Assembly: GCA_035652535.1 (NCBI GenBank)
Contig: DASRDP010000103.1
Span: 1-50,913 of the forward strand
Length of the DNA: 50,913 nt
Reading direction: 5' to 3'
Source of the DNA: Chloroflexota bacterium
Lineage (GTDB): Bacteria > Chloroflexota > UBA6077 > SHYK01
Part shown: piece after piece, positions 11,910 through 26,182 of the stretch
Numbering within the stretch: the first letter of the stretch is position 1
Layout: each line of letters opens with the position of its first letter
Notes under the pieces: model-generated
What the model was told of the DNA's origin: nothing
Seen by the model: the letters and a program-made list of their open reading frames with translations, nothing else
Database searches by the model: none
Position numbers and translations under genes: made by a program

Positions 11910-12947
11910 GTGCGGGTGCTCATTACCGGGCTGACGGGCATGGCCGGCAGCCATCTCGCGGAGATGCTTCTCGATCGCGGCGACGTGGAGATTTTCGGGA
12001 CGATGCGGTGGCGGAGTCGGCTCGACAACCTCGACGACATCGCTTCCCGCGGGTTGCTCAATACGATGGAGGGGCTGCAGATCCGCGACGAAGCATCGCT
12101 CAGCCAGCACGCCCGTCCCGGCATGGTCAATGTCGTGGAGTGCGATCTGTGCGACGCTACGTCCACGGTCCAGATGATTGGCGCCGTTCGTCCGGACTGG
12201 ATCTTCCACCTCGCCGCTCAGAGCTTCGTGCCGACCTCGTGGCACAGTCCGGCGCAGACCATCCAGACCAACGTCCTCGGTCAGCTCAACCTGTTCGAGG
12301 CGATCCGACGGGTGGGTCTCGAGCCACGAATACAGATCGCCGGCAGTAGCGAGCAGTACGGGCTCGTTCACGAAAGCGAGGTGCCAATTCGCGAGACGAA
12401 CCCGTTCCGACCACTGAGCCCGTACGCGGTGAGCAAGATTGGTCAGGAGATGATGGCGTACCAATACCACAAGAGCTACGGCTTTCACACCGTGGTCACG
12501 CGCGGGTTCAATCACACAGGGCCGCGCCGAGGACAGGTCCTCGCCACATCGAGCTTTGCCAAACAGATCGCCGAGATCGAGGCGGGGCTTCGCGAGCCCG
12601 TCATGGAAGTCGGAGACCTCAGTAGCAAACGGGATTGGAGCGACGTGCGGGACATCGTGCGGGGGTATTGGCTGGCTCTTGAGCACTGCAATGCTGGCGA
12701 GTCTTATAACATCGGCTCCGATCGTGCGATCGCGGTCGGGGAGATGCTGGATATCTTGCTCGGGCTCAGCTCGAAGCGGATTGACAAGCGCGTCGATCCC
12801 ACGCGCCTGCGGCCATCGGACGTCAAGCTGTTGTGCGGGGATTCGTCCAAGTTTCGTGGCGCGACTGGCTGGGCTCCCACCATCCCGTTTACAAAGACAA
12901 TGGAAGACTTGTTGAATTACTGGCGAAAACGTCTGAGGAAGCAATGA
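11910..12947 (+). CDS. gmd: GDP-mannose 4,6-dehydratase
   Basis: Extended SDR of 345 residues converting GDP-mannose to GDP-4-keto-6-deoxymannose. Features are GLTGMAGSHLAE (NADP loop), an inserted TMRWRSRLDNLDDI segment contacting the cofactor, the catalytic GSSEQYG, SPYAVSK and the FNHTGPRRG loop typical of Gmd. The start is GTG 11910 with GGAGGAAC about 8 nt before it, after a 90-bp gap from the reductase gene. Its stop overlaps the ATG of the phosphohexomutase. The product would feed the adjacent Rmd-like reductase for D-rhamnose in an exopolysaccharide or glycoprotein. Confidence 0.88.
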   Translation: MRVLITGLTGMAGSHLAEMLLDRGDVEIFGTMRWRSRLDNLDDIASRGLLNTMEGLQIRDEASLSQHARPGMVNVVECDLCDATSTVQMIGAVRPDWIFHLAAQSFVPTSWHSPAQTIQTNVLGQLNLFEAIRRVGLEPRIQIAGSSEQYGLVHESEVPIRETNPFRPLSPYAVSKIGQEMMAYQYHKSYGFHTVVTRGFNHTGPRRGQVLATSSFAKQIAEIEAGLREPVMEVGDLSSKRDWSDVRDIVRGYWLALEHCNAGESYNIGSDRAIAVGEMLDILLGLSSKRIDKRVDPTRLRPSDVKLLCGDSSKFRGATGWAPTIPFTKTMEDLLNYWRKRLRKQ

Positions 12948-19928: not shown

Positions 19929-20342
19929 CTAGGAGCTGGACCAGCCTCGGCGATTGCGGATGAGCTGACGTACCTGGCCCGCTACGCGCGACCACAGCTC
20001 ACGATTGTTGTCGAATGTGAGCACGTCCCCTACCTCCGCAATCGGAAACGCAGCGGCGTCAATTCCGGCATGCTCTGCCCATTCCGGGCTATCCGTGACC
20101 CGCATGAAGAAGTACGCAACGTCGCGAGTCTCTCCGTCGGATTGATACGGTGCGGTCCCGGCTTGCCCGATGATCTCCGCTTTGACGCCGGTTTCCTCGC
20201 GCACCTCGCGGATGGCGGTTTCTTCCAGGGTCTCGCCCGGATCCACCCAGCCTTTCGGAAACACCCATTCCCCCCGAAGGGTCCGCCGGAGGACGATCCG
20301 ATCGCGCCAGACGATTATACCGCCAGCCTGAACGGGCCCCAT
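19929..20342 (-). CDS. Nudix hydrolase
   Basis: A 137-residue stand-alone Nudix protein. The Nudix box (GX5EX7REUXEEXGU) is complete, from GWVDPGETLEETAI through REVREETGV near residues 31-53, giving the metal-binding glutamates. Members hydrolyse nucleoside diphosphates linked to another moiety; the substrate cannot be predicted here. Its ATG at 20342 overlaps the last base of the preceding GGDEF gene's stop codon (TGATG), so it is translationally coupled to a cyclic-di-GMP synthase. Confidence 0.9.
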   Translation of the reverse strand: MGPVQAGGIIVWRDRIVLRRTLRGEWVFPKGWVDPGETLEETAIREVREETGVKAEIIGQAGTAPYQSDGETRDVAYFFMRVTDSPEWAEHAGIDAAAFPIAEVGDVLTFDNNRELWSRVAGQVRQLIRNRRGWSSS

Positions 20343-21418
20343 CAGTCAGGCCGAATGTAGGATCTGTTGCGTCCTCGCTCCTTAGCCTCGTAGAGGGCTT
20401 GGTCAGCAGCGGAGAGGAGCGTGGCTGCGTCGGTGTATGGCGCGGCCTGCCAAGCCCCACCGATGCTCAGCGTGAGGCGTGCGCGCGGTCGATCGGGGCC
20501 AACGGGGAAGGACAGCCGTTCGACGGCCTGCCGGACCTTCTCCGCCACCTGCAGGAGTGCAAGCTGGTCGCACCCAGGAAGGATGGCGGCGAACTCCTCC
20601 CCGCCGTAGCGCGCGACCAAGTCGGTCTGCCGCAGGTTCTGGAGAATCGTCTGGGCGATCTTGCGCAGGGCGACGTTGCCTTTCGGGTGGCCGAAGGAAT
20701 CGTTGAAGGCCTTGAAATTGTCGATGTCGGCCATGATGACCGCGATCGGGTACTTGAACCGCTTGGCCTTCTGAATCTCCTGAGCGAGAGCGGTCCGAAA
20801 CTGGCGGAGATTGAACAGTCCCGTTGTCGGATCCGTTATCGCCAGGCGGCGCGTCTGCTGGTAGAGGCGCGCATTGGCGATGGTGACCGCGGCGCTGTTG
20901 GCCATCAGATCCATGACACGGAGGTCGTCCTCGTCAAACTGCTGCTGTCGAAGGACGACGATGGCGCCGAACGATTTTCCGCGGGTTCGCAGCGGCATCG
21001 CCACGAATTCCTGGCCTTGACCACCCTGCTGGATGTGCCGCGCCATCGGTTCGTCGCCGCAGAGCGCCTCGGCCGCAAGTCCGTCGAAGAGGTCCGTCGG
21101 TGCGTCGTCGTGCGGGCGCGCAGCGACGAGCTTCAGCGCCTCGTGGTGGTCTTCGAGGTAGATCGCGCTGACGGAGTCGGGGAACAGGTCGATGATTCCA
21201 TCGGCGCAGATGCGAATGCATGCGTCAACGTTTCGAGCGCCGGCGAGGCGCGTCGCAAGAGCACTGAGCGTCGTCATCTGCTGGAGGCGGAGCCGCAGCT
21301 CCAGGTACGTGCGGTTCAGGTCCTTGGCGTAGGCGTCGAGCTGCGCATAAACGGCCTGCAGATCGCGGATCTGCGCTTCCAGCGACTCAACCCGACCGGG
21401 ATCTGCTGTTGTTGTCAC
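20342..21418 (-). CDS. GAF-GGDEF diguanylate cyclase
   Basis: A 358-residue cytoplasmic signalling enzyme. An N-terminal coiled coil (about 8-45) leads into a GAF sensor domain (about 55-195) and a GGDEF domain (about 205-355) that joins two GTP into cyclic di-GMP. The active-site signature is GGEEF in RYGGEEFAAILPG, and the inhibitory I-site RQTD stands exactly five residues before it, so both catalysis and product feedback appear intact. No membrane segment is present. I take GTG 21418 as start because it follows the upstream Nudix stop by 22 nt and begins the conserved-looking coiled coil; the ribosome site is weak. Confidence 0.9.
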   Translation of the reverse strand: MTTTADPGRVESLEAQIRDLQAVYAQLDAYAKDLNRTYLELRLRLQQMTTLSALATRLAGARNVDACIRICADGIIDLFPDSVSAIYLEDHHEALKLVAARPHDDAPTDLFDGLAAEALCGDEPMARHIQQGGQGQEFVAMPLRTRGKSFGAIVVLRQQQFDEDDLRVMDLMANSAAVTIANARLYQQTRRLAITDPTTGLFNLRQFRTALAQEIQKAKRFKYPIAVIMADIDNFKAFNDSFGHPKGNVALRKIAQTILQNLRQTDLVARYGGEEFAAILPGCDQLALLQVAEKVRQAVERLSFPVGPDRPRARLTLSIGGAWQAAPYTDAATLLSAADQALYEAKERGRNRSYIRPD

Positions 21419-21440
21419 CCGTTCGTCACCGATGGCCGAC

Positions 21441-21899
21441 CTATGACGTTGCCACAGGCGGGGGAAACCCCGTGCCGAAGCGCGCGCGTGTCCGCCGGAG
21501 TGCCCGCTCGACGATCTCGACCTCGCTGGCAAAGGACATGCGCTTGATCGCCTCGACCTCCGGCAGCCATTCGACAAAGTCATTTTCCCAGTCGTGGTCG
21601 TTGACGCTTCCGCTGATCGCATCTAGCAGGTAGAAATAGACGGTCTTGTGGTGGCGCACGCCGCGCGCGGAGAACCAGTAGGTGATGTCGCCGAGGGGCT
21701 CGAGGATCCGCACGGAGATGCCTGTTTCCTCGCGCACCTCTCGCATCGCCGTTTGTTCCAGGGTCTCACCCGCGATCGGGGTGCCCTTGGGAATGCTCCA
21801 CCGCTCCGGCCGCGCGCGCCCAACGAGGACCACCTCGAGGGTCGAACCGGCTAGTCGGGTGATCACGCCGCCGGAAGAGACGTCGCGGACGGTTCTCAC
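21441..21899 (-). CDS. Nudix hydrolase (second copy in the group)
   Basis: A 152-residue Nudix protein if started at GTG 21899; the frame stays open further upstream but that part reads through the divergent control region and lacks conservation-like pattern. The Nudix box is complete: GTPIAGETLEQTAM followed by REVREETGI, with SIPKG just before it. The ending LPEVEAIKRMSFASEVEIVERAL resembles the Ap4A/MutT-like branch that acts on dinucleoside polyphosphates or NTPs. It is the first gene of the minus-strand group that continues with the diguanylate cyclase. Substrate unknown. Confidence 0.87.
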   Translation of the reverse strand: MRTVRDVSSGGVITRLAGSTLEVVLVGRARPERWSIPKGTPIAGETLEQTAMREVREETGISVRILEPLGDITYWFSARGVRHHKTVYFYLLDAISGSVNDHDWENDFVEWLPEVEAIKRMSFASEVEIVERALRRTRARFGTGFPPPVATS

Positions 21900-21925
21900 C
21901 GATCGCCCCCATCGCAGCACTGCAT

Positions 21926-22020
21926 GCCATTGTACACTCGTGTGCCGTGGTTGGACATTCTGGTGACCGCGGGCGAGCCGTTGATCGGCGACGCTGGCCG
22001 TGCGATCAGTGTACAATGGC
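21926..22020. promoter_or_regulatory. 13-bp inverted repeat in the divergent Nudix/kinase spacer
   Basis: GCCATTGTACACT (21926-21938) and AGTGTACAATGGC (22008-22020) are perfect inverted copies, 69 nt apart, in the spacer between a minus-strand Nudix gene and a plus-strand histidine kinase gene. Each arm contains TACAAT oriented outward toward the gene it faces, so each may be a -10 element or lie on one. Neither has a good -35 hexamer, which would fit activator-dependent or operator-controlled promoters. Confidence 0.5.
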
Positions 22021-22093
22021 TGCTTGTCATAAAGGACCAATTTTGAGGCGGCAACCGTAACCGCCGTGAGCCGGCAGGAGCATCGGTCGGTTT

Positions 22094-24745
22094 ATGTATC
22101 GAGCGCGCGTCGCTGATCGCCAGGGTCGCTCCAATAACCGTCCTGCTCTCATCAGTTTGCCGGTGCGCTCGGAATACCGCCGACGCCTGCGCCGCCTGTC
22201 CTCTATCTCCGAGATCGCGTTCGGTCCAGTGCAATGGACTGTGGCGCTCCTTTTCGCAATGGTGATCGGCCGCTCGGCGGGCATTGCGCCAGGCACGATC
22301 GGAGCGCTCGCCTGCGGGCTGGCAAGCGCATGGGCCGCTCGCCGTCGCACCGATACCCAGCTCGCATGGGCGGCTGTCGCGGTGTCGTGTGTCGGCTGGA
22401 TTGTGAGCGCGGTTGCCGGTCGTCAGGGCCTCGGCAGCACCTGGGTCGAAGCCGGATTCTTCGTCTTCGCAATCGGGGTAACGGCCGGCCAGCTCGCGTG
22501 GCCGGAGCTTCGCGGGTCCACCGAACGACTCGTTGCAACGGTCGTCGACGTCGTCGCCGTCCTCTCGACCCTGGCGCTGTGGACCGTAGGCGGGCTTTCC
22601 CTGCTCAAGGTGATCGTACCGGTGCAGATGGCTGAGTCCACGATTCGTTCCGCCGATCTGGTGCTGCCCCTGGTCACGGCCATCGTGGTGGCCCCGCAGC
22701 TCGCTACCGGTCGGAGACGATGCGTGTGGGGCGTGGCGCTCGGGATCGCGTTTCTCTTTGTCGGAAACCTCTTGCCGGGCCTCGAGTCGACGAAGCTGGC
22801 AGGACTCTTCATCGCGGCGCCAGTTCTGAACGCTTTGGCATTCGCCGTCATGCTGGCATCGATCGTGAGCGGCCAGGTGAGCGCTCCCACGGCGGACTTG
22901 CTCGACCACGATCGCATCCGTCCTCCGTTCCTGTTGCCCGGGCTTCTCGGAGCGGCGGGTCTCGTGATGGCCCTGCTCGTTGTCGAAGGGGGAACCCTGT
23001 TTGTCCCGGATTTTGCTCTGCTGGTGGGAGCCTGCCTGGGCGCTCGTGAAGTGCTGCGCGTGCGTAACCGTCGCCACGCGGACGAGCGCCTGGCTGCGTC
23101 GCTCGATCTGGAGGGTCGTCTCCTCACACTGCAGGGCAACACCAGTGAGACCGTTACGCCGCAGGAGACGATGAATCGTTCGTGCAGCCTCGCGATGGAA
23201 GTGCTGCGCACCAACGCTGCCTTCGTGTGGGTCGTGGAATCGGATGTCCTCGTGCTCCGCGCCCTCGGACCCAAGCCTGGTTTGCCCGAAGGTCTCCTCG
23301 GTCGTCGCATTTCGATCACCGACCCCTACGCGCTTGCCGCTCGCATTGTCCGGACCGGCGCCTCGGAAGCGTGCGACGCCGGGTCAGCCGATTCCCGCGT
23401 CGATCGCTTCCTCGCCACGCTCCTCGACGCCGGGCCGCTGCTCGGGGTGCCAATCCTCGGGGAAGAAGCGCCGATTGGAGTGTTCGTTCTGGTCCGGGCG
23501 CGCGGAGATCGTGCCTTCAGCCACTGGGACAAACAGAAAGCTGCCCTCATCGCCGCGCAGATCGCCACGACGTTCCGGCACCTCGAGCTTCACGACGAGC
23601 TGGAGAATCAGCTTCGGGAGGCCACGCTCGTCCATCGCTTCGCGGTCCAGGCAGGCACCGCGCGGTCGCTCAACGACGTTGCCTGGTACCTGCTCGAGTC
23701 GATTCGGTCGCGAATTCCGCTGGACCGCGGGTCGGTGTACCTGGCGGACTCCGCGTCGCGGGGCTCGTACACGCCCATTGCCTACTTCCCCACCCGCGCT
23801 TTGGAACGAGATCAGGCAGGTGGGCCGGACCATGCCGACCTGCGGGTGCCGCTCCGCACTGGCGACACCCTGGTTGGACACATCGAGCTTCGGCGCAGAG
23901 AAGGCGGCCCCTTCACACCCGGCGAGACCCGCATCGCCGAAACGCTGGGGCACCAGGCGGCCATCGCCCTCCAGAACGTTCGCTTGCAAGAAGAGTCAGG
24001 AAAGGTCTCGACCTATCGCGAGTTGGACCGGCTCAAGACCGATTTGCTGAACGCCGTTTCTCACGATCTCCGCGGCCCGCTCGCGAATATCAAGGGGTAC
24101 GCGGCAACGCTCGTAGACTCCGGGAGCGACATGCCGCCGGACGAGCAGCGCTCGTTCCTCGAAACCATTGAGGAGGAAGCGGATCGCCTGCGCGACCTTC
24201 TGAATCATCTCCTCGACCTATCCAAGATCGAGGCGGGTGTGCTCAAGATCGAGAAGAACCCCCTTTCGGTAGAGCGATTAGTGCAGCAAACGCTGTCGAG
24301 CGTGCGCTCGCCCGATCACCAGTACGACGTTCGCGTTCCCCGAGAGCTTTCAATCCTGGGCGACGCCAAGCGCCTGCGTCAGGTACTGAGCAACCTTCTG
24401 GAGAACGCCGCGAAATATTCTCCGGACGGCGGAGCGATCTCGGTGCGCGCCACGGCTACCGACGCCGAAGTGGTAATCTCAGTGGCCGATTCCGGCGTTG
24501 GAATCCCCCGCCACCAATGGGATCGCGTATTCCGCCCGTATCAGCGCGCGGACACCGCGACGAGCCGGGGCATCAGCGGAAATGGATTAGGCCTGGCGAT
24601 CTGCAAGGGAATCGTCGAGGCCCACGGTGGCCGCATTTGGGTCGAGAGCGAGCCCGGCGAGGGGAGCACCTTCTCGTTCACCGTGCCTCGGGCAGCGGGT
24701 GACGCCATCGCTGGGTTCGATGATCAGGACGCGCCACAGACATGA
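22094..24745 (+). CDS. Membrane-bound GAF sensor histidine kinase
   Basis: An 883-residue kinase. The N-terminal third holds about eight hydrophobic helices (roughly 45-330). Two GAF-like domains follow (about 350-505 and 520-635), then a HisKA domain with phospho-acceptor His657 in AVSHDLRGPLANIKG and an HATPase domain with the N box NLLENAAKYSPDG, the G1 box ADSGVGIP and the G2 box GNGLGLAICK. The architecture is like KdpD-type or other GAF kinases with multi-helix sensors. The first ATG at 22094 has GGAG 15 nt upstream, which is far; the exact start is uncertain. The partner regulator begins 52 bp after the stop. Confidence 0.9.
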   Translation: MYRARVADRQGRSNNRPALISLPVRSEYRRRLRRLSSISEIAFGPVQWTVALLFAMVIGRSAGIAPGTIGALACGLASAWAARRRTDTQLAWAAVAVSCVGWIVSAVAGRQGLGSTWVEAGFFVFAIGVTAGQLAWPELRGSTERLVATVVDVVAVLSTLALWTVGGLSLLKVIVPVQMAESTIRSADLVLPLVTAIVVAPQLATGRRRCVWGVALGIAFLFVGNLLPGLESTKLAGLFIAAPVLNALAFAVMLASIVSGQVSAPTADLLDHDRIRPPFLLPGLLGAAGLVMALLVVEGGTLFVPDFALLVGACLGAREVLRVRNRRHADERLAASLDLEGRLLTLQGNTSETVTPQETMNRSCSLAMEVLRTNAAFVWVVESDVLVLRALGPKPGLPEGLLGRRISITDPYALAARIVRTGASEACDAGSADSRVDRFLATLLDAGPLLGVPILGEEAPIGVFVLVRARGDRAFSHWDKQKAALIAAQIATTFRHLELHDELENQLREATLVHRFAVQAGTARSLNDVAWYLLESIRSRIPLDRGSVYLADSASRGSYTPIAYFPTRALERDQAGGPDHADLRVPLRTGDTLVGHIELRRREGGPFTPGETRIAETLGHQAAIALQNVRLQEESGKVSTYRELDRLKTDLLNAVSHDLRGPLANIKGYAATLVDSGSDMPPDEQRSFLETIEEEADRLRDLLNHLLDLSKIEAGVLKIEKNPLSVERLVQQTLSSVRSPDHQYDVRVPRELSILGDAKRLRQVLSNLLENAAKYSPDGGAISVRATATDAEVVISVADSGVGIPRHQWDRVFRPYQRADTATSRGISGNGLGLAICKGIVEAHGGRIWVESEPGEGSTFSFTVPRAAGDAIAGFDDQDAPQT

Positions 24746-24797: not shown

Positions 24798-25538
24798 GTG
24801 TACCCGAAAACCGCAAACGGGGCGTGCATAGCGATTGCTGACGACGACCCGAAGATGATCAGGCTCCTCCGAAAGAATCTGGAGCAGGCAGGCCACCGAG
24901 TCGTGTCGGCCAGCGATGGTCCCGGCGCGATCGACCTCGTCGAGACTCAGCAGCCAGACCTCTTGGTGCTGGATGTCGTGATGCCAGGAATGGATGGGTG
25001 CGAAGTCCTCACGCGGCTGCGGGAGTTCACCTGGCTGCCGGTGGTCATCCTGTCCGGCAAGGATGATGAGGCGGACATCGTTCGCGGTCTGGAAGCTGGT
25101 GCCGACGATTACGTCACCAAGCCCTTCGCCCCGCGCGAGTTCCTCGCGCGGGTCAACGCCGTCCTCCGGCGCGCGAACTTCGGGGCGGACGATCGCGGTG
25201 CCTCGGTGCTCGCGAATGGCGATCTCGTGATCGACTATGGCCAACATCTCGTGAAGCTCGGGGGCCGGGAGATCGCTCTCACGCCGACGGAGTATCGACT
25301 GCTCTCATGCCTTGGCCAGAACGTCGGGCGGACTCTCACGCAAGAGGAGATCCTGCTTCGGGTCTGGGGCAACGGCTATCAAGACGAGGCGCACCTCCTG
25401 CGCGTCAACGTGGCCCGCCTTCGGGCAAAGCTCGGTGAGAACGCGAACAGCACGAAGTACGTCGCGACTCGCCCTGGCGTCGGCTATACGATGCCGCGGA
25501 TCGACGAAGGGAGTATGACGGAGCCCGCAGCTATGTAA
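24798..25538 (+). CDS. OmpR/PhoB-family response regulator
   Basis: A 246-residue transcription factor. The receiver domain (about 10-125) has the acidic pair Asp15/Asp16, the phospho-acceptor Asp59 in LLVLDVVMPGMDG, and the Lys in YVTKPF. The C-terminal winged helix (about 145-240) carries LTPTEYRLLSCLGQNVGRTLTQ split across helix 1 and the turn, and ends with the GVGYTM wing. The start is GTG 24798 with AGGAGG 6 nt upstream. Adjacent to the GAF kinase, it is almost surely its cognate regulator; the outward inverted repeat at 22 kb is a candidate target. Confidence 0.94.
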   Translation: MYPKTANGACIAIADDDPKMIRLLRKNLEQAGHRVVSASDGPGAIDLVETQQPDLLVLDVVMPGMDGCEVLTRLREFTWLPVVILSGKDDEADIVRGLEAGADDYVTKPFAPREFLARVNAVLRRANFGADDRGASVLANGDLVIDYGQHLVKLGGREIALTPTEYRLLSCLGQNVGRTLTQEEILLRVWGNGYQDEAHLLRVNVARLRAKLGENANSTKYVATRPGVGYTMPRIDEGSMTEPAAM

Positions 25539-25672: not shown

Positions 25673-26182
25673 ATGGCTGCGGAGGAGTTGTCGTATCGCA
25701 TCCGAACAGCGACGTTGGAGGACGTACCGGTCATCCGTCAGGCGATGGGCGCTGCGTTATCGCACCCCGAGGGGAAGGGGCGTCGGGAAAGCTATCGTGC
25801 CCCGGCCACCCGGGGCGAGTTGCTGGTGCTGGAGCGATACGACCCGCGCGCGCGGGACTGGCGGATCGCGGCGCTGGTCGACTGGCACATGCGCGTCGAC
25901 GACGTCCTTACCATCCGAGACATCGCCACAGAGGGTGAGATCGTCCATGCCGGGATGGTGAAGCATCTGATTACCGAGCTGATCCGGTCGCTTTCGCCTG
26001 TGGAGATGATCGTCAAGGCCCGAGCGGACGCGGCCCAATGGAACGACATATTTCGGAGCATCCCCGGGTTCGTCCTGGAGGGATCGGAGTATCGGCGGCC
26101 CAACTGGATCAACGTTTGGAAGTGGTCGCGCGAACTGGCCGCTCGCGCGACGCGCGCACCGGCGCCACGGTTCCGCCGGTGA
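25673..26182 (+). CDS. GNAT-like hypothetical protein
   Basis: A 169-residue cytoplasmic protein. The beginning YRIRTATLEDVPVIRQAM is typical of the first strand and helix of GNAT acetyltransferases, and the middle has a VLTIRDIATEG strand followed by a helix (VKHLITELIRSL), as in that fold. The usual Q/R-x-x-G-x-G/A acetyl-CoA loop is not clear, so an active acetyltransferase is not shown. The end is basic and proline-rich. The ATG at 25673 has AAGGAA about 12 nt upstream. It sits between the response regulator and a recombinase on the same strand. Confidence 0.6.
   Translation: MAAEELSYRIRTATLEDVPVIRQAMGAALSHPEGKGRRESYRAPATRGELLVLERYDPRARDWRIAALVDWHMRVDDVLTIRDIATEGEIVHAGMVKHLITELIRSLSPVEMIVKARADAAQWNDIFRSIPGFVLEGSEYRRPNWINVWKWSRELAARATRAPAPRFRR

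Follow-up and report, generated by a model that had tools for sequence, protein, structure and literature searches.

The window, by which we mean the whole 50,913-nt stretch of DNA that was analysed, contains two divergently oriented sets of signalling genes (Table 1). On the minus strand, the gene for a GAF-GGDEF diguanylate cyclase sits between two Nudix genes (19929-21920), while on the plus strand the gene for a GAF sensor histidine kinase, whose N-terminal part is hydrophobic as judged by eye, precedes that for an OmpR/PhoB-type response regulator. The domain content of these neighbours agrees with the setting given in the first-pass annotation, which had placed an inverted repeat between a Nudix/GGDEF operon and a GAF kinase/regulator operon. 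The start of the GAF-GGDEF gene depends on the method of calling, with the mechanical open reading frame extending to 21622 and the heuristic call lying at 21418. After the regulator comes a gene for a small protein (25673-26182, plus strand) with no Pfam or NCBIfam match at E up to 0.001; by eye, a similar protein occupies the same place in two related genomes (L063 8392-9132 in G002 and L065 8290-8808 in G003).

Table 1. Features of the divergent spacer, its flanking genes and a gene found at the corresponding place in relatives
Feature	Position	Strand	Basis or remark
GAF-GGDEF diguanylate cyclase	20342..21440	-	domain match
Nudix hydrolase	21441..21920	-	domain match; probable start GTG 21920
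Left arm, GCCATTGTACACT	21926-21938	- (outward box strand)	sequence
Centre between arms	21939..22007		69 nt; would hold both weak -35 regions (placed by eye)
Right arm, AGTGTACAATGGC	22008-22020	+	sequence
GAF sensor histidine kinase (HisKA + HATPase_c)	22094..24745	+	domain match
OmpR/PhoB-type response regulator	24798..25538	+	domain match
Urate-oxidase-N-like membrane gene in relatives	L063 3930-4544; L065 3985-4581		

The repeat was confirmed by an exact sequence check. Its two arms are 100% complementary over 13 nt, with 69 nt between them and pairing that stops at 13. Each arm does hold the outward TACAAT that had been described, at 21934-21929 (minus strand) facing the Nudix/GGDEF genes and at 22012-22017 (plus strand) facing the kinase/regulator genes, and the spacer has no other outward TACAAT boxes. 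The arms are 82 bp apart centre to centre and the boxes 77 nt apart. Because TGTACA is self-complementary, each arm also carries an inward TACACT, at 21933-21938 (plus strand) and 22013-22008 (minus strand). For the arms to be non-coding, the Nudix gene must begin near GTG 21920, as the mechanical reading frame reaches back to TTG 22040. That GTG is in frame with the Nudix domain and lies 8 nt past the left -10 box. A 40-codon ATG reading frame on the plus strand (21924-22046) spans both arms and the spacer centre; Pfam has no match to it at E up to 1, and a search of 29 genomes gave, apart from the frame itself, E 0.09 at best. It was set aside as a gene since no relatives were found, and is probably a chance reading frame.

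The rarity of the repeat was estimated by generating first-order Markov copies of the sequence and counting perfect inverted repeats with arms of 13 nt or longer and no more than 120 nt between them. Forty copies of the whole window held a mean of 0.25 such repeats, and 20% of them held at least one. When the spacer alone (21871-22093, 223 nt) was copied 20,000 times, 10 copies had such a repeat. The real genome was sampled over 450.9 kb, comprising the window and 20 further stretches, or about a tenth of the total. In this sample, 11 pairs reach an arm length of 13 nt, nine of them with both arms non-coding. Four of these nine have a loop longer than 15 nt, the pair at 21926/22020 among them; the other three lie in GC-rich repeats of two stretches, L079 and L080, and their arms overlap or are shared. 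The repeat is thus real and odd for one spacer, and it is not remarkable for a search of a whole window. Within L079, nested inverted repeats of the CCCCTCTCCCCCG type cluster in non-coding DNA at 1817-1937.

The -10 pattern of the genome was derived from its own spacers, using gene calls from a codon-position heuristic. These calls and their starts are crude: the heuristic gave 326 genes with starts, and missed both the Nudix gene and the likely start of the kinase. Across 101 co-directional spacers from the 450.9 kb, TANNNT boxes numbered 69 in the sense direction vs 35 antisense, and those with an A/T-rich core were commonest 20-50 nt upstream of called starts (219 upstream regions). A weight matrix was made from 67 genome boxes, with both arm boxes left out. 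Among all positions, the right arm ranks in the top 3.6e-5 and the left arm in the top 1.4e-5, a ranking that is indicative, given a matrix so unstable that training on half of the data moves the score of the right arm between 12.7 and 5.9. In both half-splits, the sense side of genes was richer in sites that equal or exceed the score of the weaker arm, about 10-fold in one, where the numbers are tiny (1/12,165 vs 3/377,678 elsewhere), and about 5-fold in the other (60/17,943 vs 324/469,030). Boxes of the types gTACAATggc, gTACACTggc and gTACGATggc recur among the 67. Thirty-nine other divergent spacers of this genome, 60-450 nt long, were compared, and 19 of them have an outward back-to-back TANNNT pair; the spacer of the window falls outside the 39 because its starts were missed by the heuristic.

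On balance, the arms are probably the -10 regions of two ordinary back-to-back housekeeping promoters. The left promoter would drive the Nudix gene and the genes after it, the right promoter would drive the kinase/regulator pair, and the housekeeping sigma factor would read both. The 77 nt between the boxes would leave space for two separate RNA polymerases. Both promoters are putative, with activity and start sites predicted from the DNA sequence: the Nudix transcript would be leaderless or have a very short leader, and the right promoter would give a leader of approximately 70 nt before the kinase ATG at 22094. The matching flanks (AGTG before and GGC after each box) could reflect mild sequence preference together with coincidence, or could be a trace of local history. 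They are most simply explained without a common regulator and are no proof of one, and we infer that the two operons do not share one. The divergent promoter pair proposed in the first-pass annotation therefore stands in so far as the outward boxes fit the -10 pattern of the genome, while its placing under a shared regulator is unsupported.

Besides the instability of the matrix, two observations lower this estimate. The 13/13 identity of the arms is greater than what promoters usually share and counts against plain promoters. The best identity among the 2,211 possible pairs of the 67 boxes was 11/13 (11 pairs), and across the 19 comparable divergent spacers no outward pair exceeded 9/13. In addition, no clear -35 element stands 16-18 nt upstream of either box: a scan of 21700-22300 for both promoter hexamers found no site reaching 4/6 matches per hexamer and 9/12 overall. 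Many bacterial promoters lack a good -35, and the genome's own -35 signal is faint (T at -24/-23 and G at -21). The missing -35 lowers the promoter claim without excluding it. A literature search on transcription starts in Chloroflexota found nothing usable.

Among known arrangements, the spacer resembles the divergent sigma70/sigmaA promoter pairs of head-to-head operons in that a short spacer holds two -10 boxes facing outward, but differs from them in that 13 nt around the boxes are identical and the -35 elements are weak. A second comparison is with bidirectional promoters that arise from -10 symmetry, in which, according to Warman et al. (PMC12825309), opposite starts use one common -10 element. 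As there, each arm here has overlapping -10-like boxes on both strands, and antisense starts into the spacer are possible because of these; unlike there, the two operons would use separate arms 82 bp from each other, with inward boxes that are no more than potential.

The history of the spacer was examined in related genomes. Full-length orthologous kinases are 53% (G002) and 40% (G003) identical to that of the window, and the orthologous response regulators are 70% and 65% identical, with the LLRVNVARLRxKLGE recognition-helix region kept. The spacer comparison covers these two genomes, as the kinase of G001 is cut by a contig end, its N-terminal part not being found, and the G004 contig ends 140 nt short of the kinase start. 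A scan of genome contigs returned two distant kinases only. The arm pair was not found in the G002 and G003 spacers, where the best full-arm match has 5 mismatches, so conservation of the arms, which the first-pass annotation had treated as a check, was not seen. No 8-mer is common to all three spacers, and shared 7-mers are not above chance. Local alignment of the window spacer to that of G002 gave 15 columns in the left arm region, GTACACTC-TGTGCC, which is perhaps a remnant but is not significant, 6.6% of 500 shuffles being as good. A second word that G002 has in common, TTGTCATAA, does not go beyond chance (3 shared 8-mers vs 1.6 expected), and alignments to G003 and to two pieces of G004 were at chance (0.52, 0.62 and 0.52).

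On the other side of the spacer, the neighbours differ. The kinase genes of G002 and G003 face away from a gene for a small membrane protein with a match to the urate-oxidase N-terminal domain (PF06181), which is followed by a Nudix gene. The closest relative of this protein in the window's genome, 71% identical, is on another contig (G000:C92:54941-55513). For the GGDEF gene, the four other family genomes searched yielded no match at E up to 1e-40. The Nudix/GGDEF side of the spacer thus appears to have been rebuilt in this lineage, a direction drawn from four relatives, of which two could be read to the left and right of the spacer. The inverted repeat is no ancient feature common to these loci.

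A rival reading is a private two-site operator, in which one repressor or activator bound to both arms, over the -10 boxes and perhaps with looping, would switch both operons. In its favour, the arms match better than any pair among the 67 promoter boxes, the repeat arose in few Markov copies of the spacer, and each arm contains the TGTACA palindrome. The genome search proposed in the first-pass annotation, run over 4.45 Mb with the 13-mer arm, found no copy besides the two arms at 0-1 mismatch. At 2 mismatches there were 25 sites in the genome, many simply containing TACAAT, and a reversed-pattern control gave 14 in all. With no near-copies genome-wide, an operator of a regulon with several targets was rejected; a private operator is also opposed by the lack of further copies, by the absence of the arm pair from the G002 and G003 spacers and by the local gene content, the response regulator being the one candidate regulator seen adjoining. 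We regard such an operator as possible but doubtful. It is unlikely that a lineage-specific two-site operator over both -10 boxes arose when the Nudix gene came beside the kinase promoter, and that through it one protein locks the c-di-GMP/Nudix and two-component operons into joint on/off control. If a shared operator were true, it would show how a lineage connects a diguanylate cyclase in a new place with a two-component system of longer standing. The first-pass annotation had named the OmpR-type protein at 24798 as the possible regulator, and on that view the arms would be its operators, through which the kinase/regulator pair would control its own expression and the Nudix/GGDEF genes would be controlled along with it. 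The regulator lies next to the kinase, a pairing kept in both relatives, and autoregulation is common in two-component systems. Nevertheless, the sites of OmpR-family proteins are often direct repeats in tandem, spaced by about one turn, and the arms are not tandem. Tandem heptamer pairs with at most one mismatch and a spacing of 10-12 numbered 0 vs 0.89 expected in 21897-22093, a count that weaker repeats would escape. Furthermore, the recognition-helix region is nearly unchanged in the orthologues, yet the arms are missing from their spacers. With neither tandem repeats nor retention of the arms in orthologous spacers, that proposal was not upheld, and we judge it very improbable. The likeness to OmpR/PhoB-family systems lies in the regulator of that type encoded next door, and the difference in the sites: the VicR/WalR operator, as given in PMC4168254, is a tandem direct repeat about one turn apart, whereas here there are single inverted boxes 82 bp apart.

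The repeat could also lack a function of its own, with the promoters elsewhere or with one arm alone acting as a promoter. Its frequency in Markov windows, the empty -35 scan and the lack of conservation of the arms all agree with chance; against this, the two arms rank very high as -10 boxes of the genome and are aimed at the right genes, which makes chance improbable. It is hardly credible that the arms are the ends of a miniature inverted-repeat element (MITE) or the stem of a structured RNA. The whole 95 nt does fold better than shuffles (z -3.54), but the gain comes from the arms alone, the centre giving z +0.87 and -0.81 on the two strands; Rfam gives no match at E up to 1, and the flanks, TGCAT vs TGCTT, form no exact target-site duplication by eye. 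A multi-copy mobile element was rejected, as the spacer has one copy in its own genome and the flanks differ. A DNA search of 41 genomes with 21800-22200 returned, besides the window itself, two 35-nt pieces only. The G005 piece corresponds to the beginning of the kinase reading frame (window ~22098-22134). The other, in G027, matches the spacer centre (21960-21994) but lies there within a 430-aa ParB-like reading frame, without the arms, and is taken for a GC-rich coincidence.

Taken together, the mirrored sequence is best read as part of an ordinary spacer between divergent promoters. Nothing points to a special switch common to both operons, and the case serves mainly to show that mirrored -10 regions in GC-rich genomes catch the eye. 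Another divergent spacer of the genome (L093, ~12754-12868) has overlapping opposite boxes in a near-palindrome, TGGTACAATACG, and is a candidate for a bidirectional promoter with a shared box.
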